Part shown: positions 1-12,197 of the stretch, piece by piece
How positions within the stretch are numbered: the first letter of the stretch is position 1
Layout: each line of letters opens with the position of its first letter
The notes under the pieces: model-generated
The model's database searches: none
Told to the model about the DNA's origin: nothing
What the model saw: only the letters and a program-made list of their open reading frames with translations
Translations under genes and position numbers: made by a program
Source of the DNA: Parahoeflea alexandrii
Lineage (GTDB): Bacteria > Pseudomonadota > Alphaproteobacteria > Rhizobiales > Rhizobiaceae
Reading direction: 5' to 3'
Length of the DNA stretch: 64,000 nt
NCBI RefSeq assembly: GCF_027214025.1
Contig: NZ_JAPWHB010000005.1
Coordinates: 506,575 to 570,574 of the forward strand

Positions 1-585
1 ATCAGCATTCAGGGCGAGACCATCGAGATGAAGCCCGATCGATGGGGGGGGCTGCAGCCCGCAAATGCGGCACAGCTCCGCCGCATCCGCACCAGGCTTG
101 CCATGGTGTTCCAGAGCTTCAATCTCTGGCAGCACATGACGGTGCTCGGCAATGTCATCGAAGCGCCAGTGCAGGTCATGGGCGTGCCGCGCGACGAGGC
201 GATTGCGCGCGCCGAGAAACTGCTCGACCGCGTCGGTCTCTCCGACAAGCGGGATGTCTACCCGGCGTTCCTGTCGGGCGGCCAGCAGCAGCGCGCGGCG
301 ATTGCCCGTGCTCTCGCAGTCGAGCCGGAAGTCATGCTGTTCGACGAGCCGACCTCGGCGCTCGATCCCGAACTGGTAGGCGAGGTGCTCGCCGTGATTG
401 CCGATCTGGCGCGCGAAGGCCGCACCATGCTCTTGGTGACACATGAAATGAAGTTCGCCCGCGAGGTCGCCAATCATGTGGTCTTCCTTGCGGACGGGGT
501 GATTGAGGAGGAAGGTCCGCCGGACGTGATCTACAGCGCGCCAAAGTCGGAGCGTCTCAAGAAATTCCTTGCGACCGTTCAATAG
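1..585 (+). CDS. Polar amino acid type ABC transporter ATP-binding protein (5' end outside window)
   Basis: This is the cytoplasmic ATPase of a HisP/ArtP-type importer. The reading frame is open from the first base of the window, so the true start and the Walker A loop (about 60 residues) lie upstream. Visible here are the Q-loop FQSFNLW, the signature LSGGQQQR near residue 91, the Walker B VMLFDEPTSALD near residue 111, and the H-loop VTHEM, in the normal order of the family. It is followed by the binding protein and two permeases in the same orientation, which completes the importer. The ligand is not shown by the sequence; the carnitine operon beyond suggests a betaine or amino acid, but that is inference. 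Confidence 0.93.
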   Translation: MSIQGETIEMKPDRWGGLQPANAAQLRRIRTRLAMVFQSFNLWQHMTVLGNVIEAPVQVMGVPRDEAIARAEKLLDRVGLSDKRDVYPAFLSGGQQQRAAIARALAVEPEVMLFDEPTSALDPELVGEVLAVIADLAREGRTMLLVTHEMKFAREVANHVVFLADGVIEEEGPPDVIYSAPKSERLKKFLATVQ

Positions 586-632
586 TCCAAGGTTCAATGG
601 GCAAAGCCCGAACTCTTTAACAGGGGAAAATC

Positions 633-1403
633 ATGAAGAACAAAATCATCACCGCATTCGCAGCCCTCGGCATGACGCTGGCGGCCCACGCCGCATCCGC
701 TGAAACCGTGCGCGTCGGCGTCGCCGCCGAACCCTATCCGCCTTTCACCGAACCGGATGCCGCCGGCAACTGGACCGGTTGGGAAATCGACTTCATGAAC
801 GCGGTCTGCACTGAGGCCAAGCTCGATTGCGTGGTCACCCCGGTCGCCTGGGACGGCATCATTCCGGCGCTGACCTCGAACAAGATAGACGCGATCGTCG
901 GTTCGATGTCGATCACCGAAGAGCGGATGAAGACCATCGATTTCTCCGACAAGTACTACAACACCCCGTCCGTCATCGCGACCGCCAAGGGCTCGGGCAT
1001 CACTCCTGATGCCGCCGGCCTGAAGGACAAGATCATCGGCGTCCAGGTCTCGACCATTCACCAGGATTACGTCACCACCCACTTCGGCGACGTGGCTGCC
1101 GAGGTGAAGGAATACCAGACCCAGGACGAGGCCAACCAGGATCTCGCCGCCGGTCGCGTTGACGCCATCATGGCGGATTCGCTGGCGCTTGATGCCTTCG
1201 TCAAATCCGACGCCTGCTGCGAGATCGTCGGTGCAGTCGAAGATGACCCGGCTATTCTGGGTGCCGGTGTGGGCGTCGGCCTGCGCAAGGGCGATGATGC
1301 GCTGCGCGAGAAGTTCAACACGGCGATCGCCACCATCCGCGAGAACGGCACTTACGACGAGTTCTCCAAGAAGTATTTCGACTTCGACATCTACGGTAAG
1401 TAA
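633..1403 (+). CDS. ABC transporter substrate-binding protein, family 3
   Basis: The 256-residue periplasmic binding protein has an N-terminal signal peptide (basic MKNK, hydrophobic core, AxA-type site near residue 23). The mature part starts with VRVGVAAEPYPPF, the usual first strand and ligand loop of family 3 (HisJ/ArtJ-like) proteins, followed by WEIDFMNAVC and the DFSDKYYNTP hinge motif. It delivers ligand to the two permeases that follow. A purine-rich AGGGGA sequence precedes the ATG. A CC pair (DACCEIV) in the second lobe is unusual for a periplasmic protein and could form a disulfide with another cysteine. The ligand cannot be read from the sequence. Confidence 0.93.
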   Translation: MKNKIITAFAALGMTLAAHAASAETVRVGVAAEPYPPFTEPDAAGNWTGWEIDFMNAVCTEAKLDCVVTPVAWDGIIPALTSNKIDAIVGSMSITEERMKTIDFSDKYYNTPSVIATAKGSGITPDAAGLKDKIIGVQVSTIHQDYVTTHFGDVAAEVKEYQTQDEANQDLAAGRVDAIMADSLALDAFVKSDACCEIVGAVEDDPAILGAGVGVGLRKGDDALREKFNTAIATIRENGTYDEFSKKYFDFDIYGK

Positions 1404-1432
1404 CATGCCGGTCACGGCGCATTGCGCTCTAA

Positions 1433-1463
1433 CCGGCCCGGCGGGTAATCTCCGCCGGGCCGG
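1433..1463 (+). promoter_or_regulatory. GC-rich stem-loop between binding-protein and permease genes
   Basis: A perfect 12-bp stem (CCGGCCCGGCGG / CCGCCGGGCCGG) closes a 7-nt loop in the gap between the binding protein and the first permease. There is no T-tract. Such hairpins after binding-protein genes usually stabilise the upstream mRNA or cause partial termination, giving an excess of binding protein over permease. Confidence 0.75.
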
Positions 1464-1477
1464 CAAGGTCGTTTTCC

Positions 1478-2212
1478 ATGCTTGAGTGGATTGCGGGCCT
1501 CGCTTCCTGGGAGCTGCTGGCGCTCGAACCGCCGGGCTGGGGAGGCGTGCTGCTCGGAGGCCTCGCCATCTCGCTCCAGGTCGCTGTCGGCGGCTATCTC
1601 CTGGGCTTTCTGATTGGCGTCGGCGGCGCCACGGGCAAGCTCTATGGAGGCCCGATCCTGCGCGATCTTCTCGACGTCTACACCACGCTTGTTCGGGCCG
1701 TCCCCGAACTGGTTCTCATCCTGCTGCTCTATTACGCAGGTACCGATGCGCTCAACCAGCTGATGCTGCTGATCGGCGCCGAGCGTGTCGATATCAGCGG
1801 TCTTGCCGCCGGCATCTTCGTCATCGGCGTGGTCCAGGGCGCCTACCAGACCGAGGTTCTGCGCGGCGCCTTCAAGGCCGTACCTCATGGCCAGATCGAG
1901 GCGGCGCGCGCCTATGGCATGTCGTCGCTGCAGGTGCTCAGGCGCATCACGCTTCCCGGCATGCTGCCCCATGCCGTTCCCGGTCTCGCCAATCTCTGGC
2001 TGATCGCCACCAAGGATACAGCGCTGCTGGCGGTGGTCGGCGTCGCCGAACTCACGCTGGTGACCCGCCAGGCCGGCGGCACCACCAAGTCCTACTTCCT
2101 GTTCTTCTGCGCTGCTGGCCTGCTCTATCTGCTGGTGACGTTGATCTCCAATGTCGGCATCCGCCGCGTTGAACGCTATGCCCGCCGTGGCATGCCGGCG
2201 GTGCGCTCATGA
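1478..2212 (+). CDS. Amino acid ABC transporter permease (HisQ type)
   Basis: This 244-residue inner-membrane protein has several hydrophobic segments and a cytoplasmic EAA coupling loop, AARAYGMSSLQVLRRITLP, near residues 145-165, which docks on the ATPase. It is one of two permeases that form the channel. The reading frame ends 4 bases into the next permease (ATGA overlap), so the pair is translationally coupled. Length and motif order fit HisQ/OccQ-like permeases. The start follows the intergenic stem-loop. Confidence 0.92.
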   Translation: MLEWIAGLASWELLALEPPGWGGVLLGGLAISLQVAVGGYLLGFLIGVGGATGKLYGGPILRDLLDVYTTLVRAVPELVLILLLYYAGTDALNQLMLLIGAERVDISGLAAGIFVIGVVQGAYQTEVLRGAFKAVPHGQIEAARAYGMSSLQVLRRITLPGMLPHAVPGLANLWLIATKDTALLAVVGVAELTLVTRQAGGTTKSYFLFFCAAGLLYLLVTLISNVGIRRVERYARRGMPAVRS

Positions 2213-2991
2213 GCCCCGAAATCCGAAGCTGGCGTGAGCCACACCGGCTGGTGCTGCTGGCCATCGGCATCGGCATCATCGTCTTTGCCGCAATCAACAT
2301 GCGATGGGATTGGCTGCCGCGCTATTCCGGCCGGCTCGTCGAAGGCGTCGGCACCACGTTGTGGCTGTTGTTTCTGACCAGTGCCCTCGGCTTTCTGCTC
2401 GCCGTGCCGCTTGGACTGGCCCAGGCCGCAGGACCGTTCTGGCTGTCGGGACCGGCGCGCATGTTCTGCACGGTCATCCGGGGCACGCCATTGCTGTTGC
2501 AGCTCTGGCTTCTCTACTACGGCCTCGGCTCCCTGTTCGCCTACTGGCCCGAGATCCGCCAGTCCTGGGCCTGGCCCTACCTTCGCTCCGCCTGGCCCTA
2601 CGGCGTGCTGGCGCTGACGCTCTCCTTTGCAGGCTACGAGGGCGAGGTGATGCGCGGGGCATTTGCCGGCGTGCCCAAGGGAGAACTCGAGGCGGGCCGG
2701 GCTTATGGCATGTCGCCGTTGACAGTATTCCGGCGGATCTGGCTGCCGCGCGCCATCCATCGGGCGCTGCCGACGCTCGCCGGCGAAACCGTGTTGCAGC
2801 TCAAGGCCACTCCGCTGGTCGCCACCATCACGGTGGTCGATGTCTACGCCATCATCTCACGGGTACGCCAGGACACCTACCTGACCTATGAACCGCTGCT
2901 GCTGCTGGCCTTGATCTACATGATCCTGACCGGGATCCTGGTGCTCGCTTTCCGCTGGCTGGAGGCAAAGGTTCCGGTCAAGGGTGGTTGA
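2209..2991 (+). CDS. Amino acid ABC transporter permease (HisM type)
   Basis: The second permease is 260 residues long, with an N-terminal membrane segment, the central RGTPLLLQLWLLYYGLG region typical of HisM/ArtM proteins, and the EAA loop EAGRAYGMSPLTVFRRIWLP. It overlaps the first permease by 4 bases. It is the last gene of the importer, and its stop codon lies in the first copy of a short tandem repeat that also carries the stop codon of the convergent regulator gene. Confidence 0.92.
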   Translation: MSPEIRSWREPHRLVLLAIGIGIIVFAAINMRWDWLPRYSGRLVEGVGTTLWLLFLTSALGFLLAVPLGLAQAAGPFWLSGPARMFCTVIRGTPLLLQLWLLYYGLGSLFAYWPEIRQSWAWPYLRSAWPYGVLALTLSFAGYEGEVMRGAFAGVPKGELEAGRAYGMSPLTVFRRIWLPRAIHRALPTLAGETVLQLKATPLVATITVVDVYAIISRVRQDTYLTYEPLLLLALIYMILTGILVLAFRWLEAKVPVKGG

Positions 2992-3008
2992 TCAGTGGTG
3001 GTTGATCA
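2983..3008. repeat. Two 12-bp direct copies spanning both convergent stop codons
   Basis: GGTGGTTGATCA occurs at 2983-2994 and again at 2997-3008, a period of 14 bases. The first copy contains the permease TGA and the second contains, on the minus strand, the TGA of the regulator. The second copy continues into the palindrome GGTTGATCAACC (3000-3011). This looks like a small slippage duplication. Confidence 0.7.
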
Positions 3009-4022
3009 ACCGCGGTTGACGCCGGCCGCCTTGCGGGCAGTGGAAGGCTGTTTCCGGCTTGCGCTCGGCGACAGGCCGAACTGGCGGCTGAAGGCGCGAG
3101 AGAACGAAGATTCCGAGGAGAAGCCGGTCCGCGACGCGATGTCGGTCATGCTCAGCCGCGTATCGTTGACCAGCCGCCGGGCCGCAGCCAGCCGGAGCGA
3201 CAGGAAGTAGGCGCCGGGGGTCTCACCCAACTGCCGGGAAAACAGCTGTTCCAGGCCACGCGCCGACATCGACACCCGCCGGGCGATCGCCGCGATGCTG
3301 ACGGGCGTGTCGATATGGGCTTCCATCAGCCGGATCGACCGCACCAGCCGCGGATCGTGATTGGCGTCGCCGAGGGTGACGTTCACCTGCGGGTCGCCCG
3401 CAGCCCTCTGGTCGTCGTGAACGAAGCTGCTCGCAACATCCAAAGCTGCTGGGTGGCCGAGCACCTGGCGCACGATGTCGACCATCATGTCGAAGGTAGG
3501 CGAGGCGCCCGATGTGGTGATGAAGCGGCCGTCCGTCACGTAGCGGTCGGGCCTCAGATCGACATTCGGAAAGGCTGCGGCGAAGTCCTCGAAATCCTCC
3601 CAGTGCGTGGCGGCGCGATGCTCGTCGAGCAGTCCTGCGCGCGCCAGCAGCCAGGGACCGGATTCGATCCCCATGACGATCATCGCGTTGCGTGCCGCCC
3701 GGTAGATATGTCCGATGAGCCGCCGGTCGGTCATTTGCGCCGCGCCAAACCCCGCCACAATGCCGAGGACATCGCACCGCGATGAGGGATCATGCCTGCC
3801 GGATACCGGCCAGCCGATACCCGAGGACGTCGCCGGCGCGTCTCCGTCGACCGAGACGAAGCGCCATTCGAACACGAGGCGGCCTGATTGCCGGTTGGCA
3901 GCCCGCAGGGGCTCGACAGCGCTTGCAAGTGTCAGCAACGAGCATCCGGGCAGCACCAGCAGGTCGACCGTGATAGGTCGCCCGCTTTCCGAAATCCCCG
4001 GCAGGATTTTGTTTTGTGTCAT
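3006..4022 (-). CDS. cdhR: GlxA/CdhR-type AraC-family regulator of carnitine catabolism
   Basis: The 338-residue protein has an N-terminal DJ-1/PfpI-like sensor domain (ITVDLLVLPGCSLLTLASAVEP, about residues 15-190) and a C-terminal AraC domain (about 225-330) with two helix-turn-helix units, the second being DIASRTGFSSESSFSRAFSRQFG. This GlxA-like architecture is that of CdhR, the activator of carnitine dehydrogenase genes in Pseudomonas. It is divergent from the carnitine operon, separated by 76 bases, as expected for a local activator. A GAAGGAAA ribosome site precedes the ATG. The fold is certain; the assignment to carnitine rests on the adjacent lcdH and BKACE genes. Confidence 0.85.
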   Translation of the reverse strand: MTQNKILPGISESGRPITVDLLVLPGCSLLTLASAVEPLRAANRQSGRLVFEWRFVSVDGDAPATSSGIGWPVSGRHDPSSRCDVLGIVAGFGAAQMTDRRLIGHIYRAARNAMIVMGIESGPWLLARAGLLDEHRAATHWEDFEDFAAAFPNVDLRPDRYVTDGRFITTSGASPTFDMMVDIVRQVLGHPAALDVASSFVHDDQRAAGDPQVNVTLGDANHDPRLVRSIRLMEAHIDTPVSIAAIARRVSMSARGLEQLFSRQLGETPGAYFLSLRLAAARRLVNDTRLSMTDIASRTGFSSESSFSRAFSRQFGLSPSASRKQPSTARKAAGVNRG

Positions 4023-4098: not shown

Positions 4099-5016
4099 AT
4101 GCCATTGACCATGAACCGCGAGGTCTTCATCACCTGCGCCGTCACGGGCTCAGGCTCCACCCAGGACCGCAGCCCGCATGTGCCGCGCTCACCCGAGCAG
4201 ATCGCCAATTCTGCGATCGACGCGGCCAGGGCCGGCGCCGCCATCGTCCATTGCCATGTCCGCGATCCCGAGACAGGTGCGCCCCGCCGCGATGTCGCGC
4301 TCTACCGCGAGGTCACCGAGCGCATCCGCGAAGCCGAAGTCGACGTGGTCTTGAACCTGACTGCCGGCATGGGCGGCGACATGGTGTTCGGCCCCACCGA
4401 AAAACCCTTGCCGCTCAATCCGGTCGGCACCGACATGGCCGGCGCGTCCGAACGCATGAAGCACGTTCTTGAGTGCCTTCCCGAAATCTGCACGCTCGAT
4501 TGCGGCACCATGAACTTCGCCGAGGCCGACTACGTCATGACCAACACGCCGGGTATGCTGCGCGCCATGGGCGGCATGATGACCCAGCTCGGCGTCAAGC
4601 CGGAGATCGAGGCCTTTGATACCGGCCATCTCTGGTTCGCCAAGGAACTGGTCAAGGAAGGCGTGCTTAAGCCTGATGCGCTGGTGCAGCTCTGCATGGG
4701 CGTGCCCTGGGGCGCGCCGGACGACCTCAACACCTTCATGGCAATGGTCAACAACGTGCCTGCCGACTGGAACTGGTCGGCCTTCGCGCTCGGCCGCAAC
4801 CAGATGGCCTATGTCGCGGCCGCCGTGCTGGCTGGCGGCAATGTCCGGGTCGGGCTCGAGGACAATCTCTGGCTCGGCAAGGGCGAACTCGCCACCAATG
4901 CCCAGCTTGTCGAGCGTGCCGTGACCATCGTCGAGAATATGGGCGCACGCGTCATCGGTCCCGCCGAGGTGCGCGAGCGGCTGAACCTGACCAAGCGCGC
5001 GCCTGCATCCGCCTGA
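4099..5016 (+). CDS. Beta-keto acid cleavage enzyme (BKACE, formerly DUF849), probable dehydrocarnitine cleavage
   Basis: The 305-residue TIM-barrel enzyme has the BKACE zinc-binding motif HCHVRD (near residue 51) and the late glutamate motif GLEDNLW. BKACE enzymes condense a beta-keto acid with acetyl-CoA; on 3-dehydrocarnitine the products are betainyl-CoA and acetoacetate. Its position three genes from a fused carnitine dehydrogenase/betainyl-CoA thioesterase makes that substrate by far the most likely. A strong GAGGAGG site lies 9 bases before the ATG. An internal ATG at 4111 is a less likely start. Confidence 0.9.
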   Translation: MPLTMNREVFITCAVTGSGSTQDRSPHVPRSPEQIANSAIDAARAGAAIVHCHVRDPETGAPRRDVALYREVTERIREAEVDVVLNLTAGMGGDMVFGPTEKPLPLNPVGTDMAGASERMKHVLECLPEICTLDCGTMNFAEADYVMTNTPGMLRAMGGMMTQLGVKPEIEAFDTGHLWFAKELVKEGVLKPDALVQLCMGVPWGAPDDLNTFMAMVNNVPADWNWSAFALGRNQMAYVAAAVLAGGNVRVGLEDNLWLGKGELATNAQLVERAVTIVENMGARVIGPAEVRERLNLTKRAPASA

Positions 5017-5038: not shown

Positions 5039-5659
5039 ATGGAGAAGGTCAAGTTTACCGCGATGAAGGACGGTGACCGGGAGGACTACGAGTTCCTCAC
5101 CGAGCACGAAATCGAATACGCTTCCAAGACCGCCGAGCGGCTTCTTGGCGCGATGGTCGAACTTGATGAAAGCCTGTCAGGCTATCAGGTCACCCGGCTC
5201 GGCCATTCGCTTCAATCGGCCACCCGCGCCTGGCGCGACGGTGCCGATGTCGACTGGGTGGTCTCGGCGCTGCTGCACGACATCGGCGACATCTACGCGC
5301 CCTACAATCACGATGAATATGCCGCAGCCATTCTCCGTCCCTTCGTGCGCGAACAGTGCTCCTGGGTGGTCGAAAAGCACGGCGATTTCCAGAAGCTCTA
5401 CTATGCCCACCATCTCGGCGGCGACCCGAATGCCAGGGATGCCTACAAGGGCCATGCTTATTACGACGACTGCGCCACGTTCTGCGAGCGCTGGGACCAG
5501 TCGAGCTTCGATCCCGACTACCCGCATGAAAACATCGACTTCTTCCGCTTGATGGTCGAGGAAGTCTTTGCCCGCAAGGCCTATGACCCGGCCGTCATCC
5601 GTGCCGGCGAACGGGTTCCCCTGACAGATTCAACGACAGCCGAAGGGCGAAACGCATGA
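5039..5659 (+). CDS. HD-domain protein, PhnZ/MIOX-like, possible diiron oxygenase
   Basis: The 206-residue protein has an HD fold with LGHSLQSA, the paired metal motif LLHDIGD (about residue 80), further histidines (YNHDEYAA, EKHGDF, YAHHLGG), and a late ERWDQSSFDPDY. The pattern of an early histidine, HD, two mid-chain histidines and a distal Asp after RW resembles the mixed-valent diiron oxygenases PhnZ and MIOX more than nucleotide phosphohydrolases. It sits between BKACE and lcdH and overlaps lcdH by 4 bases, so it is part of the carnitine operon. The reaction is unknown; oxidation of a quaternary ammonium substrate is one possibility, since TmpB, a PhnZ relative, acts on a trimethylammonium phosphonate. 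Confidence 0.8.
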   Translation: MEKVKFTAMKDGDREDYEFLTEHEIEYASKTAERLLGAMVELDESLSGYQVTRLGHSLQSATRAWRDGADVDWVVSALLHDIGDIYAPYNHDEYAAAILRPFVREQCSWVVEKHGDFQKLYYAHHLGGDPNARDAYKGHAYYDDCATFCERWDQSSFDPDYPHENIDFFRLMVEEVFARKAYDPAVIRAGERVPLTDSTTAEGRNA

Positions 5660-7089
5660 GCGAAATCAAGAAGGCCGCCATCATCGGCGGCGGTGTGATC
5701 GGCGGCGGCTGGGCTGCCCGGTTCCTTCTCAATGGCTGGGACGTGATCATCTCCGACCCCGATCCGGAAGCCGAGCGCAAGGTTGGCGAAGTGCTTGCCA
5801 ATGCCCGGCGCTCGCTGCCGGCCCTGTCCGATGTCAGCGTGCCGAAGGAAGGCAGACTGAGCTTCGCCTCTTCAATCGCAGAAGCGGTCAGCGATGCCGA
5901 CTGGATCCAGGAGAGCGTGCCCGAGCGCCTCGACATCAAGCACACGATCCTCGCCGAGATCCAGAAGCACTGCCCCGCCGACGCGTTGATCGGCTCCTCG
6001 ACGTCAGGCTTCAAACCCTCCGAATTGCAGCAGGGTGCGGCCCGTCCCGAGCAGATCTTCGTCGCCCACCCCTTCAACCCGGTCTACCTGCTGCCGGTGA
6101 TTGAACTGGTCGGCGTCCAGGCGACGCTGGAGCGCGCCCGCGACGTGCTCGACGGCATCGGCATGAAGCCGCTGATCGTCCGCAAGGAAATCGACGCCCA
6201 TATCGCCGACCGCTTCCTCGAAGCCGTCTGGCGCGAGGCGCTGTGGCTGGTCAAGGACGGCATCGCCACCACCCAAGAGATCGACGACGTCATCCGCTTC
6301 GGCTTCGGCATGCGCTGGGCGCAGATGGGTCTGTTCGAGACCTACCGCATCGCCGGCGGCGAAGCTGGCATGCGCCATTTCATCGCCCAGTTCGGCCCGT
6401 GCCTTTCCTGGCCCTGGACCAAGCTGATGGACGTGCCGGAACTCACCGATGAGCTGACCGACATGATCGCCGATCAGTCCGACGCGCAGTCGGGCATGCA
6501 TTCGATCCGGGAGCTCGAGCGCATCCGCGACGACAACCTGGTCGCCATCATGCGCGCGCTCAAGGGCCGCAACTGGGGCTCGGGTGAATTGCTCAACACC
6601 CATGACGCGCGCAACAAGCCGGCCTTGCCGACCGCCATCGATGCGCCGTTCACGACGCTCGAGCGCGTTATCCCGGTCGACTGGATGGACTACAACGGCC
6701 ACATGAACGAAAGCCGCTACGGCCAGGTGTTCTCTGATGCCGGCGACGTGGTGATGCAAATGGTCGGCGCCGACCAGGACTATATTGCCAGCGGCCTGTC
6801 CTATTTCACCGTGTCCAACGAGATCGGCTATCTCAACGAAACCCATCTGGGCGACGCGATCCATGTCCGCACCCAGGTGCTCGAGGCACGCGGCAAGAAG
6901 CTGCGCATGTATCACGAGATGATCCGCACCGCGGATGGTGAACTGCTTTCGACCTGCAACCAGCTGCTCATCCACGTCTCGCTTGAAACCCGCCGTGCTT
7001 GCGAGCCCGAAGGCGAGGTTCTGGCAAAGATCACGGCACTTGGCGAGGCGCAGTCGAAACTGCCCAAGCCCGCCAGCATGCGGGATTGA
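5656..7089 (+). CDS. lcdH: Fused L-carnitine dehydrogenase / betainyl-CoA thioesterase
   Basis: Residues 1 to about 320 form a 3-hydroxyacyl-CoA dehydrogenase-like enzyme, with an NAD fold IIGGGVIGGGWAARF, STSGFKPSELQ, and the catalytic HPFNPVYLLPVIELV. Residues from about 330 to 477 form a hot-dog thioesterase (VDWMDYNGHMNESRYGQVFSDAG). The first domain oxidises L-carnitine to 3-dehydrocarnitine; the second hydrolyses betainyl-CoA, made by BKACE, to glycine betaine. In Pseudomonas these are separate genes; the fusion is the rhizobial form. The ATG overlaps the HD gene stop by 4 bases. Both domains look intact. Confidence 0.93.
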   Translation: MSEIKKAAIIGGGVIGGGWAARFLLNGWDVIISDPDPEAERKVGEVLANARRSLPALSDVSVPKEGRLSFASSIAEAVSDADWIQESVPERLDIKHTILAEIQKHCPADALIGSSTSGFKPSELQQGAARPEQIFVAHPFNPVYLLPVIELVGVQATLERARDVLDGIGMKPLIVRKEIDAHIADRFLEAVWREALWLVKDGIATTQEIDDVIRFGFGMRWAQMGLFETYRIAGGEAGMRHFIAQFGPCLSWPWTKLMDVPELTDELTDMIADQSDAQSGMHSIRELERIRDDNLVAIMRALKGRNWGSGELLNTHDARNKPALPTAIDAPFTTLERVIPVDWMDYNGHMNESRYGQVFSDAGDVVMQMVGADQDYIASGLSYFTVSNEIGYLNETHLGDAIHVRTQVLEARGKKLRMYHEMIRTADGELLSTCNQLLIHVSLETRRACEPEGEVLAKITALGEAQSKLPKPASMRD

Positions 7090-7100
7090 GGGGCGTAACC

Positions 7101-7862
7101 ATGAGCCAGCGCGTCCTCATCACCGGTGGCGGATCGGGCATCGGCAAGGCCATGGCCGAGACCTTTGCAGCCCAGGGCGCGCGTGTGCTGGTCACCGACA
7201 TGGACCAAGCGGCGCTCGATCAGTGTCCCGGCGGTTGGCTGAAAGAGCAAGGCGATGCCAGCGATCCCGCTCATATGCGCGCTGTGTTCGACCGCATCGC
7301 GACCGAGTGGGGCGGGATTGACGTCGTCTGCGCCAATGCAGGAATTGCCGGGCCCACGGCCCTTGTCGAAGACGTCGAGCCCGAGGATTTCCGCCGCTGC
7401 ATGGCGGTCAATCTCGAAGGCGCGTTCCTGGCGGCCAAATATGCCGCGCTGATGATGAAGGCGCAGAAATCCGGCGTGATCCTGATCACGTCTTCGAATG
7501 CCGGTCTTTATGGCTTCCCCAACCGGGCACCCTACGCGTCGGCAAAATGGGCGGAGATCGGGCTGATGAAGACCTTGGCCATGGAACTCGGCCCCTACGG
7601 CATCCGCGCCAACGCGATCGCGCCGGGCTGCGTCGAAGGCCCGCGCATCGACGGCGTCATCGAGCGCGAGGCGAAGGCCAAGGGAACCACGCCGGACGTG
7701 ATCCGCGCCGGTTACGAGGCGGGCGTGTCGATGCGCTCCTTCGTGACCGCCCAGGACATCGCCAACATGGCGGTCTTCCTCGCCTCCGACGGGGCAAGGC
7801 TGGTCTCCGGCCAGGTAATCGCCGTTGACGGCCATACAGAAAATCCAGACCCAAAGGTTTAA
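7101..7862 (+). CDS. SDR-family NAD(P)-dependent oxidoreductase
   Basis: This 253-residue classical short-chain dehydrogenase has the cofactor motif TGGGSGIG, the NAG motif (CANAGIAGP), catalytic Ser in ITSSNAG and the YxxxK pair in YASAKW. The C-terminal SGQVIAVDGH is the usual SDR end. I chose the ATG at 7101, just after lcdH, because upstream in-frame starts overlap lcdH and add unrelated sequence. Its place between lcdH and an acyl-CoA dehydrogenase suggests a hydroxy intermediate of carnitine or butyrobetaine breakdown, but the substrate is not evident. Confidence 0.88.
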   Translation: MSQRVLITGGGSGIGKAMAETFAAQGARVLVTDMDQAALDQCPGGWLKEQGDASDPAHMRAVFDRIATEWGGIDVVCANAGIAGPTALVEDVEPEDFRRCMAVNLEGAFLAAKYAALMMKAQKSGVILITSSNAGLYGFPNRAPYASAKWAEIGLMKTLAMELGPYGIRANAIAPGCVEGPRIDGVIEREAKAKGTTPDVIRAGYEAGVSMRSFVTAQDIANMAVFLASDGARLVSGQVIAVDGHTENPDPKV

Positions 7863-7866
7863 GCTC

Positions 7867-9030
7867 ATGGACTTCGGACTGACACAGGAACAGGAGATGA
7901 TCGTCGAGACCACGCGGTCCTTCGTCGAGAACGAACTCTATCCGCACGAAGCCCAGGTCGAGCGCACCGGCCATCTCGATATCGATCTGGTGCGCGAGAT
8001 CCAGCAAAAGGCGATCGCCGCCGGTCTCTATGCAGCCAACATTCCGGAAGAATTCGGCGGCGCCGGTCTCGATACGCCGACATGGCTTCTCTACGAGAAG
8101 GAACTTGGCCGCGCCAATTACGCGCTGCACTGGACCTGCGTCGCGCGTCCCTCCAACATCCTCTGCGCCGGAACGCCCGAGCAGCGCGCCCGCTATCTCG
8201 AGCCTTGCGTGGCGGGCGAGAAATGGGATTGCCTGGCGATGACAGAGCCAGGCGCCGGCTCCGATCTGCGCGGCATGAAGGCCAGCGCCAGGCAGGACGG
8301 AACCGACTGGGTCCTCAACGGCACCAAGCACTTCATCTCTCACGCCGACATCGCCGACTTCACCATTGCCTTCATGGCCACGGGTGAGGAAGACACGCCG
8401 CGAGGCAGGAAGAAGCTGATCACTGCCTTCTTCGTTGACAAGGGAACGCCCGGATACGCGGTCCGCGACGGCTACCGCAATGTCTCGCATCGCGGCTATA
8501 CCAACGCCATTCTCGAATTCGACAATTGCCGCGTTCCGGCTGAAAACGTACTCGGCGAAGTCCACAAGGGCTTTGAGGTCGCCAACACCTGGCTCGGCGC
8601 GACGCGTCTGCAGGTCGGCGCCACCTGCCTTGGCCGCGCCGACCGTGCCTTCAGACATTCCGTCGAATGGGCGGCGACGCGTCAACAGTTCGGCCAGCCG
8701 ATCGGCAAGTTCCAGGGCGTCTCGTTCAAGCTCGCCGACATGGCGATGGAAATGAAGGCTGCCGAACTTATGATCCTCGAAGCCGGCTGGAAATTCGATC
8801 GCGGCGAGGCGTCGGACGCCGACATGGCAATGGCCAAGCTCAAGGCCACCGAAATGCTGGCCATGGTCGCCGACGAGGCGATCCAGATCCATGGCGGCAT
8901 GGGCCTGATGGACGAACTGCCGCTCGAACGCATCTGGCGCGACGCCCGGATCGAGCGCATCTGGGAAGGCACGTCCGAAATCCAGCGCCACATCATTTCC
9001 CGCGCGCTGCTGCGTCCGTTCGGGGCATAA
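7867..9030 (+). CDS. Acyl-CoA dehydrogenase, candidate gamma-butyrobetainyl-CoA dehydrogenase
   Basis: This 387-residue flavoprotein has the family motifs in order: N-terminal helical domain, LAMTEPGAGSD, a central beta domain, the QFGQPIGKFQGVSFKLADM helix, and IHGGMGLMDELPLERIWRDARI followed by IWEGTSEIQR, whose Glu matches the catalytic base of medium-chain dehydrogenases. The ATG at 7867 gives the standard MDFGLTQEQ start. With the CoA ligase and CaiD-like hydratase in the same operon, conversion of gamma-butyrobetainyl-CoA to crotonobetainyl-CoA is the natural prediction; that substrate is inferred from context. Confidence 0.9.
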   Translation: MDFGLTQEQEMIVETTRSFVENELYPHEAQVERTGHLDIDLVREIQQKAIAAGLYAANIPEEFGGAGLDTPTWLLYEKELGRANYALHWTCVARPSNILCAGTPEQRARYLEPCVAGEKWDCLAMTEPGAGSDLRGMKASARQDGTDWVLNGTKHFISHADIADFTIAFMATGEEDTPRGRKKLITAFFVDKGTPGYAVRDGYRNVSHRGYTNAILEFDNCRVPAENVLGEVHKGFEVANTWLGATRLQVGATCLGRADRAFRHSVEWAATRQQFGQPIGKFQGVSFKLADMAMEMKAAELMILEAGWKFDRGEASDADMAMAKLKATEMLAMVADEAIQIHGGMGLMDELPLERIWRDARIERIWEGTSEIQRHIISRALLRPFGA

Positions 9031-9062
9031 GCGATTTCGGCGCAATATTGGAGCCTACAGGC

Positions 9063-9350
9063 ATGAAACCGGCCGTCACAATCACCTATTGTCGCCAGTG
9101 CAACTGGATGCTGCGTGCCGGCTGGATGGCGCAGGAACTGCTATCGACCTTCTCGGAGGAGCTCGGCTCCGTTACGCTGGTGCCGGGCACCGGCGGCATC
9201 TTCACCATCGAGGTTGATGGTGAACTGATCTGGGACCGCAAGGCCGAAGGTGGCTTCCCGGACGTCAAGGCTCTGAAGGGCAGGGTGCGCGACCGCATCG
9301 ATCCGGACCGCGATCTCGGCCATCTCGAGCGTACGAAGGGCGACGAATGA
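9063..9350 (+). CDS. SelT/SelW/SelH (Rdx) family thioredoxin-like protein
   Basis: This small protein of 95 residues begins with TITYCRQCNW, the CxxC redox motif of SelW/Rdx proteins with cysteine in place of selenocysteine, and continues with the family's GGIFTIEVDGELIWDRK and FPDVKALKGRVRD segments. Members have a thioredoxin-like fold; their physiological role is poorly known. It lies between the acyl-CoA dehydrogenase and the acyl-CoA synthetase and overlaps the latter by 4 bases, so it is co-transcribed with carnitine-type genes. A longer in-frame reading into the preceding gene is an artefact. Confidence 0.88.
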   Translation: MKPAVTITYCRQCNWMLRAGWMAQELLSTFSEELGSVTLVPGTGGIFTIEVDGELIWDRKAEGGFPDVKALKGRVRDRIDPDRDLGHLERTKGDE

Positions 9351-11398
9351 CCCGCGATCTCTCCCGCCTGCTGCGGCCCCGCTCCATAGCGCTGTTCGGC
9401 GGCGGCTGGGCCGTCAATGTCGTCGCGCAGCTGAAGAAATCCGGCTTCGACGGCGAGATCTGGCCGGTCAATCCGAAGCGTGCCGACATCTTGGGCGTGC
9501 CTTGCCTCGCCTCCATCGACGATTTGCCGTCAGCGCCCGACGCCAGTTTCATCGGCGTCAACCGCGACGCGACCATCGAGGTGGTGGAACGGCTGAGCGC
9601 CATGAGCGCCGGCGGGGCGACGTGCTTTGCCTCCGGATTTCTCGAAAGCGAGGCCGAAACCGCGGGCGGCGCCGATCTTCAGGCGCGGCTGATCGCGGCT
9701 GCAGGCGACATGCCGATCCTCGGGCCCAACTGTTACGGGCTCCTGAACTATCTCGACAATGTCACTCTGTGGCCCGATCAGCACGGCGGGCTCAAGGTCG
9801 AAAGCGGCGTGGCGATCGTCGCGCAATCCTCCAATATCGCCATCAACATGACCATGCAGGCCCGCGGCCTGCCGATCGCCTATGTGGTGGCCGCCGGAAA
9901 CCAGGCACAGGTCGGTGCGAGCGACATCGCTGCGGCACTGCTTGATGACGACCGGGTCAGCGCCATCGGTCTCTATCTCGAAGGCTTCGGCGACATACGG
10001 GCGCTGGAAGCCTTCGCCGCCAAGGCCCGTGCCAGGGGCAAGCCGGTCGTCGCCATCAAGATCGGCCGCTCCGACAAGGCCCGTGCCGCGACCATGACCC
10101 ACACGGCCTCCCTCGCAGGCAACGCCGCGGCGGGCTCCGCCCTGCTCAAGCGGCTGGGGATCATCGAGGTCGAAACCATTGCGGTGTTCCTGGAAACGCT
10201 CAAGCTGCTGCACAGCCTCGGCCCCTTGCCCGGCGCGTCCGTCTGCTCGGTCAGTTGCTCGGGTGGTGAGGCGAGCCTGATGGCCGATCTGAGCAGCGGC
10301 AGTGCGCTGGATTTCGTCGAATTCGCTCCAGCCCAGCGGGCAGATCTGAAGGCCGAGCTCGGTCCGATCGTCACCATCGCCAATCCGCTCGACTACCACA
10401 CCTTCATCTGGGGCGACACGCCGCGCATGACCCGGGTTTTCTCGACGGTCATGGCCGATACCTTTGATCTGAGCGTTTTTGTCCTCGACATGCCCCGCGC
10501 CGACCGCTGCGATCCCGCAGGCTACCAGTGCGCCGTCGATGCGATCATCGCCGCGAAGGCTCAGACCGGCGCCCGCGTTGCCGTGCTGGCGAGCCTGCCT
10601 GAAAACATGTCGGATCATTTTACCCGTGAGTTCATGCGGGGAGGGGTCGCTGTCCTTCACGGCATGAGTGAGGGCATCGCCGCAATCGGCGCCGCCATTG
10701 CAGCGGGGCGGCTCAGGGAGGCGGCTTCCGAACCACTGGTGCTCGCAGCCAACGGTGCGAATGCTACATCCATCCTCAGCGAGGCCGCCTCGAAAGAGGC
10801 CCTGTCGGGGTTCGGCCTCAGAATCCCGAAATCGATCCAGGCGCAATCCATTGAAGAGTTGATCGAGGAGAGTGCCGCTCTGTCATTCCCGGTCGTGCTT
10901 AAAGGCACCGGCCTGGCGCACAAGAGCGAAGCGGGTCTCGTTGCGCTTGGTATTGCCGACGAGCCGAGCCTCAGCGTCGCCGCCCGGAAGATGCAGGGCG
11001 TCACCTCCGAGTTCCTGGTCGAGGAAATGGCCGTGGGCGGCATTGCGGAAGTGCTTGTCGGCATTACCCGCGACCCGACCGGCACCTTCCTCCTCACTCT
11101 CGGCGCCGGCGGAGTGCTGACGGAGCTGCTGGCTGATACCGCCAGCCTGTTGCTGCCGGCCAGCCCCATCGAGATGGAAACGGCGCTCAACAGCTTGCGG
11201 ATCGGACGCCTGTTGCAGGGCTATCGCGGCAAGCCCGCCGCCGACATGCAGGCCCTGACCGATGCCGTGATGGCCATCTGCCGCTATGCTGTGGCTCATG
11301 CCGATCGGCTGGTCGAACTCGAAGTCAATCCGCTGATCGCCCGGGTGGGTGACGCCATCGCCGTCGATGCGCTGATCCGCCTCCATGACGCTGAATAG
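9347..11398 (+). CDS. NDP-forming acyl-CoA synthetase (acetate-CoA ligase family)
   Basis: The 683-residue enzyme has a CoA-binding domain (about 1-130, SIALFGGGWAVNVVAQLKKSGF), flavodoxin-like succinyl-CoA ligase domains (about 140-450) with the phospho-histidine loop MTHTASLAGNAAAG, and a C-terminal ATP-grasp domain (about 460-683: FPVVLKGTGLAHKSEAGLV and VEEMAVGG). This is the layout of single-chain ADP-forming acyl-CoA synthetases. In this operon it probably activates gamma-butyrobetaine or carnitine with CoA for the adjacent dehydrogenase and hydratase. The substrate is inferred from context only. Confidence 0.88.
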   Translation: MTRDLSRLLRPRSIALFGGGWAVNVVAQLKKSGFDGEIWPVNPKRADILGVPCLASIDDLPSAPDASFIGVNRDATIEVVERLSAMSAGGATCFASGFLESEAETAGGADLQARLIAAAGDMPILGPNCYGLLNYLDNVTLWPDQHGGLKVESGVAIVAQSSNIAINMTMQARGLPIAYVVAAGNQAQVGASDIAAALLDDDRVSAIGLYLEGFGDIRALEAFAAKARARGKPVVAIKIGRSDKARAATMTHTASLAGNAAAGSALLKRLGIIEVETIAVFLETLKLLHSLGPLPGASVCSVSCSGGEASLMADLSSGSALDFVEFAPAQRADLKAELGPIVTIANPLDYHTFIWGDTPRMTRVFSTVMADTFDLSVFVLDMPRADRCDPAGYQCAVDAIIAAKAQTGARVAVLASLPENMSDHFTREFMRGGVAVLHGMSEGIAAIGAAIAAGRLREAASEPLVLAANGANATSILSEAASKEALSGFGLRIPKSIQAQSIEELIEESAALSFPVVLKGTGLAHKSEAGLVALGIADEPSLSVAARKMQGVTSEFLVEEMAVGGIAEVLVGITRDPTGTFLLTLGAGGVLTELLADTASLLLPASPIEMETALNSLRIGRLLQGYRGKPAADMQALTDAVMAICRYAVAHADRLVELEVNPLIARVGDAIAVDALIRLHDAE

Positions 11399-11414
11399 GA
11401 AAAGGAGTCCGCTC

Positions 11415-12197
11415 ATGACCGGACCTGTGAAAACCCGTATCGTCGGCCACGTGCTCGAAGTCACGCTCGACCGGCCCAAGGCAAATGCCGTCGACCTCGC
11501 CACCAGCCGCATCATGGGCGAGGTGTTCCGCGATTTTCGCGACAATCCGGAGCTTCGGGTGGCGATCCTCACCGCCGCTGGCGAGAAATTCTTCTGCCCC
11601 GGCTGGGATCTCAAAGCCGCCAATGATGGCGATGCAGTCGATGGGGACTATGGCGTCGGCGGTTTTGGCGGATTGCAGGAACTGCCGCATCTCAACAAGC
11701 CTGTGATCTGCGCCGTCAACGGCATCTGCTGCGGCGGCGGGCTCGAGATCGCGCTCTCCTGTGACATCATTCTGGCCGCTGAACACGCCACTTTCGCGCT
11801 GCCGGAAATCCGATCAGGCACGGTGGCCGATGCGGCGTCGATCAAGCTGCCCAAGCGGATCCCCTATCATATCGCCATGGAAATGCTGTTCACCGGGCGC
11901 TGGCTTGATGCTGAGGAGGCCCATCGCTGGGGCTTCGTCAACCAGATCCACAAACCCGATGAATTGATGGCCAAGGCCTGGGAGATGGCGGAACTGCTCG
12001 CCTCAGGTCCGCCGCTGGTCTTTGCCGCGATCAAGGAAGTGGTGCGCGAAGCCGAGGGCGAAAAATTCCAGGACACCATGAACAAGGTCACCCGCAGACA
12101 ATTGCGCACGGTCGACACGCTCTATGGGTCCGAAGACAATCTCGAAGGCTTCAGGGCATTCTCTGAAAAGCGCGATCCGGTCTGGAAGGGCAAGTAG
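11415..12197 (+). CDS. caiD: Crotonobetainyl-CoA hydratase-like enoyl-CoA hydratase
   Basis: This 260-residue crotonase-fold protein has the oxyanion segments FFCPGWDLKAAN and CCGGGLEIALSCD, and the following ALPEIRSGTVADA. Similarity to CaiD and the operon context support hydration of crotonobetainyl-CoA to L-carnitinyl-CoA. The ATG at 11415 is preceded by AGGAAAAGGAG; an earlier in-frame ATG at 11385 lies inside the preceding gene and lacks this site. It is the last gene of the operon and converges on hutC with only 20 bases between. Confidence 0.82.
   Translation: MTGPVKTRIVGHVLEVTLDRPKANAVDLATSRIMGEVFRDFRDNPELRVAILTAAGEKFFCPGWDLKAANDGDAVDGDYGVGGFGGLQELPHLNKPVICAVNGICCGGGLEIALSCDIILAAEHATFALPEIRSGTVADAASIKLPKRIPYHIAMEMLFTGRWLDAEEAHRWGFVNQIHKPDELMAKAWEMAELLASGPPLVFAAIKEVVREAEGEKFQDTMNKVTRRQLRTVDTLYGSEDNLEGFRAFSEKRDPVWKGK

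Follow-up and report, generated by a model that had tools for sequence, protein, structure and literature searches.

A PhnZ/TmpB-like HD-domain protein in a carnitine operon of Parahoeflea alexandrii, a candidate oxygenase of hydroxylated quaternary-ammonium compounds

Within a carnitine operon of Parahoeflea alexandrii lies the gene for an HD-domain protein, P0001, which we consider probably (roughly 60%) to be an oxygenase whose substrate is a hydroxylated quaternary-ammonium compound. As the best explanation, we assign it to a new HD-domain oxygenase subfamily that is sister to PhnZ/TmpB, and we infer for it iron, mixed valence and oxygenase chemistry. That its substrate is carnitine is the most speculative part of the proposal, and is put forward tentatively.

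The window—the whole stretch of 64,000 nucleotides that was analysed—contains the following features around this gene:

28..2991, + strand: predicted ABC transporter (ATPase, whose start is possibly upstream of the window, binding protein and two permeases), with annotated counterparts in Sulfitobacter (L319)
3006..4022, − strand: divergent GlxA/AraC-type regulator, GbdR/CdhR-like (202.8 bits with the GbdR model, missing the cut-off of 480)
4099..5016, + strand: gene of the BKACE kind, predicted to cleave 3-dehydrocarnitine (by family and context; under the curated cut-off of its best model)
5039..5659, + strand: HD-domain oxygenase-like protein P0001, 206 aa (ORF listing, family models, alignment and AF2 model)
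5204..5206, 5276..5278, 5279..5281, 5309..5311, 5378..5380 and 5495..5497, + strand: codons of the putative ligands H56, H80, D81, H91, H114 and D153, respectively
5656..5659, + strand: ATGA overlap of the HD stop and the carnitine dehydrogenase start, indicating translational coupling (from the sequence; ATGA in 57 of 80 relatives)
5656..7089, + strand: carnitine 3-dehydrogenase fused to a thioesterase domain (NF005716, 751 bits, passing the cut-off of 592)
7101..7862, + strand: short-chain dehydrogenase, start codon inferred (ORF listing and family models)
7867..9030, + strand: acyl-CoA dehydrogenase, candidate gamma-butyrobetainyl-CoA dehydrogenase, start codon inferred (under curated cut-offs)
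9054..9350, + strand: small protein of the Rdx family, SelT/SelW-like (PF10262, 112 bits)
9347..11398, + strand: member of the ADP-forming acyl-CoA ligase family, candidate gamma-butyrobetaine ligase (under curated cut-offs)
11385..12197, + strand: crotonobetainyl-CoA-hydratase-like enoyl-CoA hydratase (302.7 bits, cut-off 500)

The HD open reading frame starts with ATG and has a purine-rich stretch upstream, GGGGAGGGG. A preliminary description of this DNA had placed a 206-residue HD protein here, translationally coupled to the fused carnitine dehydrogenase and carrying an early histidine, an HD pair, mid-chain histidines and the aspartate of an RWD motif; the reading frame, its + strand, the ATGA overlap and residues H56, H80–D81, H91, H114 and D153 bear out each of these. 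BKACE and carnitine dehydrogenase–thioesterase genes lie together under a GlxA/AraC regulator, the combination by which we recognize the operon. Among its carnitine genes, the dehydrogenase fusion is the only one to pass a curated cut-off; the remaining names reflect family and context, with cut-offs missed. The Rdx-family protein has a CxxC motif and is present also in Hoeflea (L004–L006; 92–94%).

Profile and fold support the grouping of P0001 with PhnZ and TmpB, and not with HD phosphohydrolases that have a known structure or a curated model. Against the sequences of the PDB, a family profile of 26 diverse members matches PhnZ at 3.5e-14 and TmpB at 6.3e-13, followed by Cas10 (0.038), MIOX (0.22) and a dGTPase-like protein (0.25). 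Best matches to nucleotide phosphohydrolases would have told against the original idea; the best matches are PhnZ and TmpB. The TmpB, Phn-HD and PhnZ1 models are matched by all 26 members at E<=1e-3, HDIG by two, and PF05153 (MIOX) by 16 at E<=0.01. P0001 itself passes the cut-off of Pfam HD (24.5 bits; cut-off 22) and misses those of the oxygenase models: 21.9 bits for MIOX PF05153 (gathering score 25), 31.2 for Phn-HD TIGR03276 (214.6), 22.8 for the TmpB equivalog NF049941 (300) and 27.1, far below the cut-off, for PhnZ1. An AF2 model built from 50 close sequences (pLDDT 85.6, pTM 0.84) gives ten Foldseek matches below 1e-3, all of them chains of PhnZ (7) or TmpB (3), in the range 1e-5 to 5e-4 with TM 0.55–0.69, and nothing else below 0.07. 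With TM-scores of ~0.6 and an rmsd of ~4 Å, P0001 therefore has the same fold as PhnZ and TmpB and is not a close copy; its identity to PhnZ in the fold alignment is 23–24%. A quick family tree sets the HD family apart from TmpB and Phn-HD with support 100. Of the likeness to PhnZ, TmpB and MIOX suggested earlier, the part that stands is that PhnZ and TmpB are closest by profile and fold; TmpB itself, given the low score with its model and the absence of YxxE, proves to be only a distant relation.

We aligned 157 family members with 20 TmpB and 12 Phn-HD sequences; the members are P0001, ten from the set of 80 close relatives, and 146 drawn from loci of the class and of plasmids (two of the 144 loci contributed no HD). 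As judged from this alignment, a few rows of which are identical or tandem copies, all 157 members have H56, H80, D81, H91, H114 and D153. These residues share columns with the corresponding ligands of TmpB and Phn-HD (H, HD, H, H and D), where the final position holds D in 18 of 20 TmpB and 12 of 12 Phn-HD. Such invariance means that the pattern is not due to chance. It is no proof of an oxygenase by itself, because dinuclear HD phosphatases exist too (YqeK, in the table of PMC8177086), and the profile and fold matches bear that argument. Around the ligands the family departs from its kin. The YxxE loop, with Y and E in 20 of 20 TmpB, reads L46 and Y49 in P0001, at the places of PhnZ Y24 and E27; the L46 column is variable, and the Y49 column is aromatic in 134 of 157 members (Y 79, F 45, W 10). 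The AKR of 20 of 20 TmpB and 12 of 12 Phn-HD gives way to F117, Q118 and a variable residue, the HDxGH of PhnZ/TmpB to HDxGD, and the K of their D..K to F157 in P0001. Since the YxxE loop is replaced and the curated cut-offs are missed, P0001 is not an orthologue of PhnZ or TmpB. To judge from the sequence, having fewer basic and more aromatic residues would suit a trimethylammonium ligand without a phosphonate.

The strongest argument for an oxygenase of hydroxylated compounds is the recurrent pairing of hydroxylase genes with this one HD family. In PhnY/PhnZ and TmpA/TmpB, the hydroxylase acts first and the HD oxygenase second (PMC8177086, section 1.4). Among 144 loci around HD homologues (134 from class genomes, 10 from plasmids), 22 have a same-strand hydroxylase gene within 125 bp of HD (TauD 9, PhyH 6, DIOX_N/2OG 5 and FA_hydroxylase 2, the names checked on samples), a count biased by profiles seeded from adjacent genes; 122 have none within that distance. 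Because of this seeding, the count was repeated with unselected same-strand neighbours, 147 ORFs in all (156 minus nine of over about 700 aa). TauD (8), PhyH (5) and DIOX_N/2OG (5) reappear there, together with zinc alcohol dehydrogenase (8), short-chain dehydrogenase (6) and class II aldolase (4), so that zinc alcohol dehydrogenases equal TauD in frequency. In a control of 103 ORFs lying 3–5.8 kb away (the longest ORF per side, on either strand, 103 of 234 drawn, with genes of 270–380 aa perhaps under-represented), hydroxylase families are absent from the top 25 families, and so number at most one each. TauD, PhyH and DIOX_N/2OG are branches of one Fe(II)/2-oxoglutarate superfamily, and FA_hydroxylase is of a different kind. 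The DIOX_N/2OG-Fe(II) oxygenases are paired with distant HD homologues, of about 30–43% identity (L174, L180, L214, L238 and L247), and some PhyH genes accompany tandem HD copies (L158, L162 and L186, with two PhyH in L158).

Close relatives tie the HD gene to carnitine genes. The preliminary description had envisaged a neighbourhood survey for lcdH and BKACE; carried out on 80 close-relative loci (genome contigs), it finds BKACE, HD and CdhA in this order in 78. One exception (L003) meets a contig edge after HD, and the other (L065) has HD without carnitine genes. In L060, a GDSL hydrolase, possibly an acylcarnitine esterase, is interposed between BKACE and HD (7348–7998). Eight further relatives came from the phylum sample: L309–L314 retain the order, and L315–L316 have neither BKACE nor CdhA within their 3.6 kb. 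As the order is kept in relatives' loci, the linkage is typical of Hoeflea, Mesorhizobium and their neighbours. The family as a whole is wider, matching 109 of the 385 class genomes (E<=1e-10) and 59 of the 398 phylum genomes (E<=1e-20); the database record of one relative is labelled inositol oxygenase family protein. In the class-sample stretches, CdhA lies near HD in G000 and G161 only, and a weaker CdhA-like gene (258 bits) lies 3.7 kb from HD in G120. The 1.6-Mb genome G161 (L151) holds HD, thioesterase, BKACE and CdhA inside 3 kb.

The clade containing P0001, which we term clade A (49 rows of a quick tree, their node having an SH-aLRT of 93), occurs in 36 of the 385 sampled genomes. CdhA, at a line of 300 bits of our own choice with at most three candidates scored per genome, is present in 28 of these 36 and in 31 of the 349 others, and TauD (TmpA model, E<=1e-40) in 31 of 36 and 33 of 349, both comparisons being uncorrected for relatedness and genome size; one or the other gene is found in 34 of 36. 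When homologue-bearing genomes only are counted, CdhA occurs in 28 of 36 with clade A and 17 of 73 of the rest. Three genomes—G207 and G297 (each 99% complete) and G356 (100%)—have HD and TauD, adjacent in G356 and far apart in the other two, with no BKACE match and CdhA-model matches of at most 90.2 bits, as expected if HD and TauD suffice without BKACE and CdhA. Relatives also occur among other quaternary-ammonium genes, in keeping with the metabolic setting first proposed for P0001. A plasmid of P. aeruginosa has, consecutively, TauD, HD, choline-binding protein, choline dehydrogenase and aldehyde dehydrogenase; in Rhizobium sp. CB3060, the HD gene (72%) has a GbcB-like gene upstream and is followed by BetI-like, choline dehydrogenase, choline-binding protein and aldehyde dehydrogenase genes, the BetI, GbcB and aldehyde-dehydrogenase matches being under cut-off. 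Elsewhere, in two genomes of 1.2–1.3 Mb (L129 and L134, around 7000), HD directly precedes glutamate-cysteine-ligase-family and glutathione-synthase-like genes, named by family models in L129 and by gene clusters in L134. On the P. syringae plasmid pB76-81 (L119, 7001–7428), an unannotated HD homologue in two pieces looks broken.

L-carnitine, Me3N-CH2-CH(OH)-CH2COO, differs from the substrate of TmpB solely in having CH2COO for PO3. Its hydroxyl would arise from the hydration of crotonobetainyl-CoA, and the CoA genes of the operon could make carnitine; because they could, and because a TauD search of the P. alexandrii genome found none, we take L-carnitine to be the likeliest substrate, as the obvious hydroxylated product. 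P0001 probably carries a diiron centre on H56, H80/D81, H91, H114 and D153, and would cut a hydroxylated trimethylammonium acid beside its C–OH carbon in an O2-dependent manner: R-CH(OH)-X + O2 -> R-COOH + HO-X. L-carnitine and O2 would then be converted directly into glycine betaine and glycolate, a shortcut around carnitine dehydrogenase, BKACE and thioesterase that uses neither CoA nor NAD. The best of the GlcD-like proteins in the same genome scores 468 bits, below the cut-off of 568, by which glycolate use is neither backed nor ruled out. HD oxygenases catalyze the four-electron oxidation of a C–C or C–P bond, and those known oxidise a carbon bearing OH (both from section 1.4 of PMC8177086). 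Gamma-butyrobetaine, the direct substrate named in the preliminary description, is therefore rejected: it has no C–OH, and candidates for a CoA route (acyl-CoA dehydrogenase, CoA ligase and hydratase-like) are present in the operon. It is conceivable, though we would not rely on it, that P0001 is a carnitine-cleaving HD diiron oxygenase and that its kin, each paired with a hydroxylase of one of four families, make up a wide-ranging hydroxylate-then-cleave system for compounds other than phosphonates, in clade A mainly quaternary-ammonium ones.

Several observations pull away from carnitine. In Sulfitobacter W027 the same operon lacks the HD, short-chain dehydrogenase and Rdx genes, and LysR and TauD come after it; in A. 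fabrum C58, BKACE and CdhA have no HD gene as a neighbour (each judged at the locus only). The known carnitine pathway thus needs no HD. CdhA (E<=1e-60) is found in 214 plasmid records (60 of the 214 listed) and an HD homologue in 15. Where PMC12482172 deals with the degradation of carnitine through dehydrogenase and BKACE in P. aeruginosa, and with the S. meliloti carnitine dehydrogenase that also converts betainyl-CoA, the relevant parts cite no HD protein. P0001 might instead oxidise some other hydroxylated quaternary-ammonium compound feeding into the same regulon—examples being D-carnitine, homocarnitine and 2-hydroxy-3-(trimethylammonio)propionate, the last of which would yield glycine betaine + bicarbonate—and we treat this as a possibility to be kept in view. 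It would accord with genome G337, where a TauD–HD pair coexists with a separate TauD adjoining CdhA, so that the pair may act on a substrate other than gamma-butyrobetaine; with loci L112 and L317, where a choline-type binding protein and oxidases adjoin HD; and with the TauD tree (three duplicate rows removed beforehand), in which 9 of the 12 TauDs near HD fall in a 14-row clade of their own (100/99) that groups with TmpA (94/86). That clade also has the CdhA/BKACE-adjacent TauD of G159, on a long branch; the other three HD-near TauDs (L128, L189 and L254) group with the remaining CdhA-adjacent TauDs, three of the four CdhA-adjacent ones lying outside the 14-row clade. Against a different compound, the genome of P0001 itself is without TauD, its CoA genes would give a beta-hydroxy acid, and clade A co-occurs strongly with CdhA. 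Some TauD–HD loci have unusual company. An enolase-superfamily gene (sugar-acid dehydratase/cycloisomerase-like; L293, 8341–9510) occupies the place of HD in the TauD-HD operon of G030, possibly as its functional replacement, congeners L130 and L181 having HD there. DMSP-demethylase-family genes (483 and 515 bits, cut-off 410) lie near the TauD-HD cassette of L130 (10543–11655) and the TauD of L293 (4315–5415), and L130 has an MFS transporter and a glutathione-peroxidase-like gene as well.

Other readings appear weaker than an oxygenase of a hydroxylated quaternary-ammonium nutrient. It is unlikely that P0001 is an HD phosphohydrolase, nucleotidase or other hydrolase whose carnitine link is incidental: the Pfam HD score and the dinuclear HD phosphatases noted above would allow it, yet neither the curated hydrolase families nor the hydrolases of the PDB come near the match strength of PhnZ and TmpB, and hydroxylases neighbour its relatives. 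Less likely again is a role in detoxification, in which P0001 would oxygenate trimethylaminoacetone or some other by-product arising from 3-dehydrocarnitine, the unstable product of carnitine dehydrogenase. The ATGA overlap does couple HD to CdhA, and trimethylaminoacetone is seen in metabolomics of carnitine-using Citrobacter, according to PMC12482172; however, G207, G297 and G356 have HD and TauD with no close CdhA homologue, and a ketone would lack the C–H on the oxidised carbon for the known mechanism. Least probable of all is that P0001 shares the function of TmpB, on (R)-1-hydroxy-2-(trimethylammonio)ethylphosphonate, despite their kinship and the grouping of most partner TauDs with TmpA. 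Five clade A genomes (G022, G148, G154, G310 and G335) hold TmpA and TmpB over curated cut-offs besides the clade A HD, which is therefore no substitute for TmpB; in G263 and G340, a TmpA that passes its cut-off adjoins a TmpB-like HD, and a TauD-HD pair is present as well; and the YxxE, A-K-R and D..K motifs of phosphonate oxygenases are replaced. P0001 as a replacement for TmpB is accordingly disfavoured. A further genome, G105, has a TmpB-like HD and no TmpA match over cut-off.

The titles and opening parts of abstracts in the open-licence PMC literature, a scope that leaves subscription papers mostly outside, yielded no publication linking an HD protein to carnitine metabolism. The parts consulted of PMC12421898, on a SAR11 island with BBOX, CDH and BKACE, do not have HD among the genes named, and those of PMC12478193, which concerns Ruegeria grown on carnitine, mention CdhABC and no HD domain. 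The HD-domain oxygenases named by PMC8177086 (2020), in the part consulted, are three (MIOX, PhnZ and TmpB), to which NCBIfam adds PhnZ1, also with a phosphonate substrate. O2-dependent cleavage of carnitine or of a close relative, which P0001 may carry out, is not known for any carnitine gene. If our reading is true, a widespread further subfamily acting on quaternary-ammonium nutrients widens HD-oxygenase chemistry, and an O2-dependent route from carnitine to glycine betaine is added; the hydroxylase pairings of HD relatives offer ready-made tests of substrate.

The window shares the core gene kinds of the carnitine catabolic operon cdhR-BKACE-cdhAB, in an order that matches Sulfitobacter W027, and differs from it in having HD between BKACE and carnitine dehydrogenase and in adding a short-chain dehydrogenase and an Rdx gene. 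A hydroxylase gene adjoining HD, the layout of TmpA/TmpB and PhnY/PhnZ, is seen in 22 of 144 family loci and not in the window, whose genome gave no TauD. With PhnZ, the (R)-2-amino-1-hydroxyethylphosphonate oxygenase (PDB 4MLM/4N6W), P0001 shares fold, size, the H...HD...H...H...D ligands and, through those relatives, a hydroxylase partner gene, whereas no phosphonate gene was noted in the window operon. TmpB, the (R)-1-hydroxy-2-trimethylaminoethylphosphonate oxygenase (PDB 6NPA), likewise shares fold, ligands and size; the TmpA-like TauD adjoining some relatives and the quaternary-ammonium theme are further likenesses, but TmpB forms a separate clade and coexists with the P0001 kind in several genomes. 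MIOX is more remote, P0001 lying below the PF05153 cut-off and MIOX appearing in the PDB search at just E 0.22, yet it has the same diiron HD ligand pattern and, according to PMC8177086, cleaves a C–C bond.
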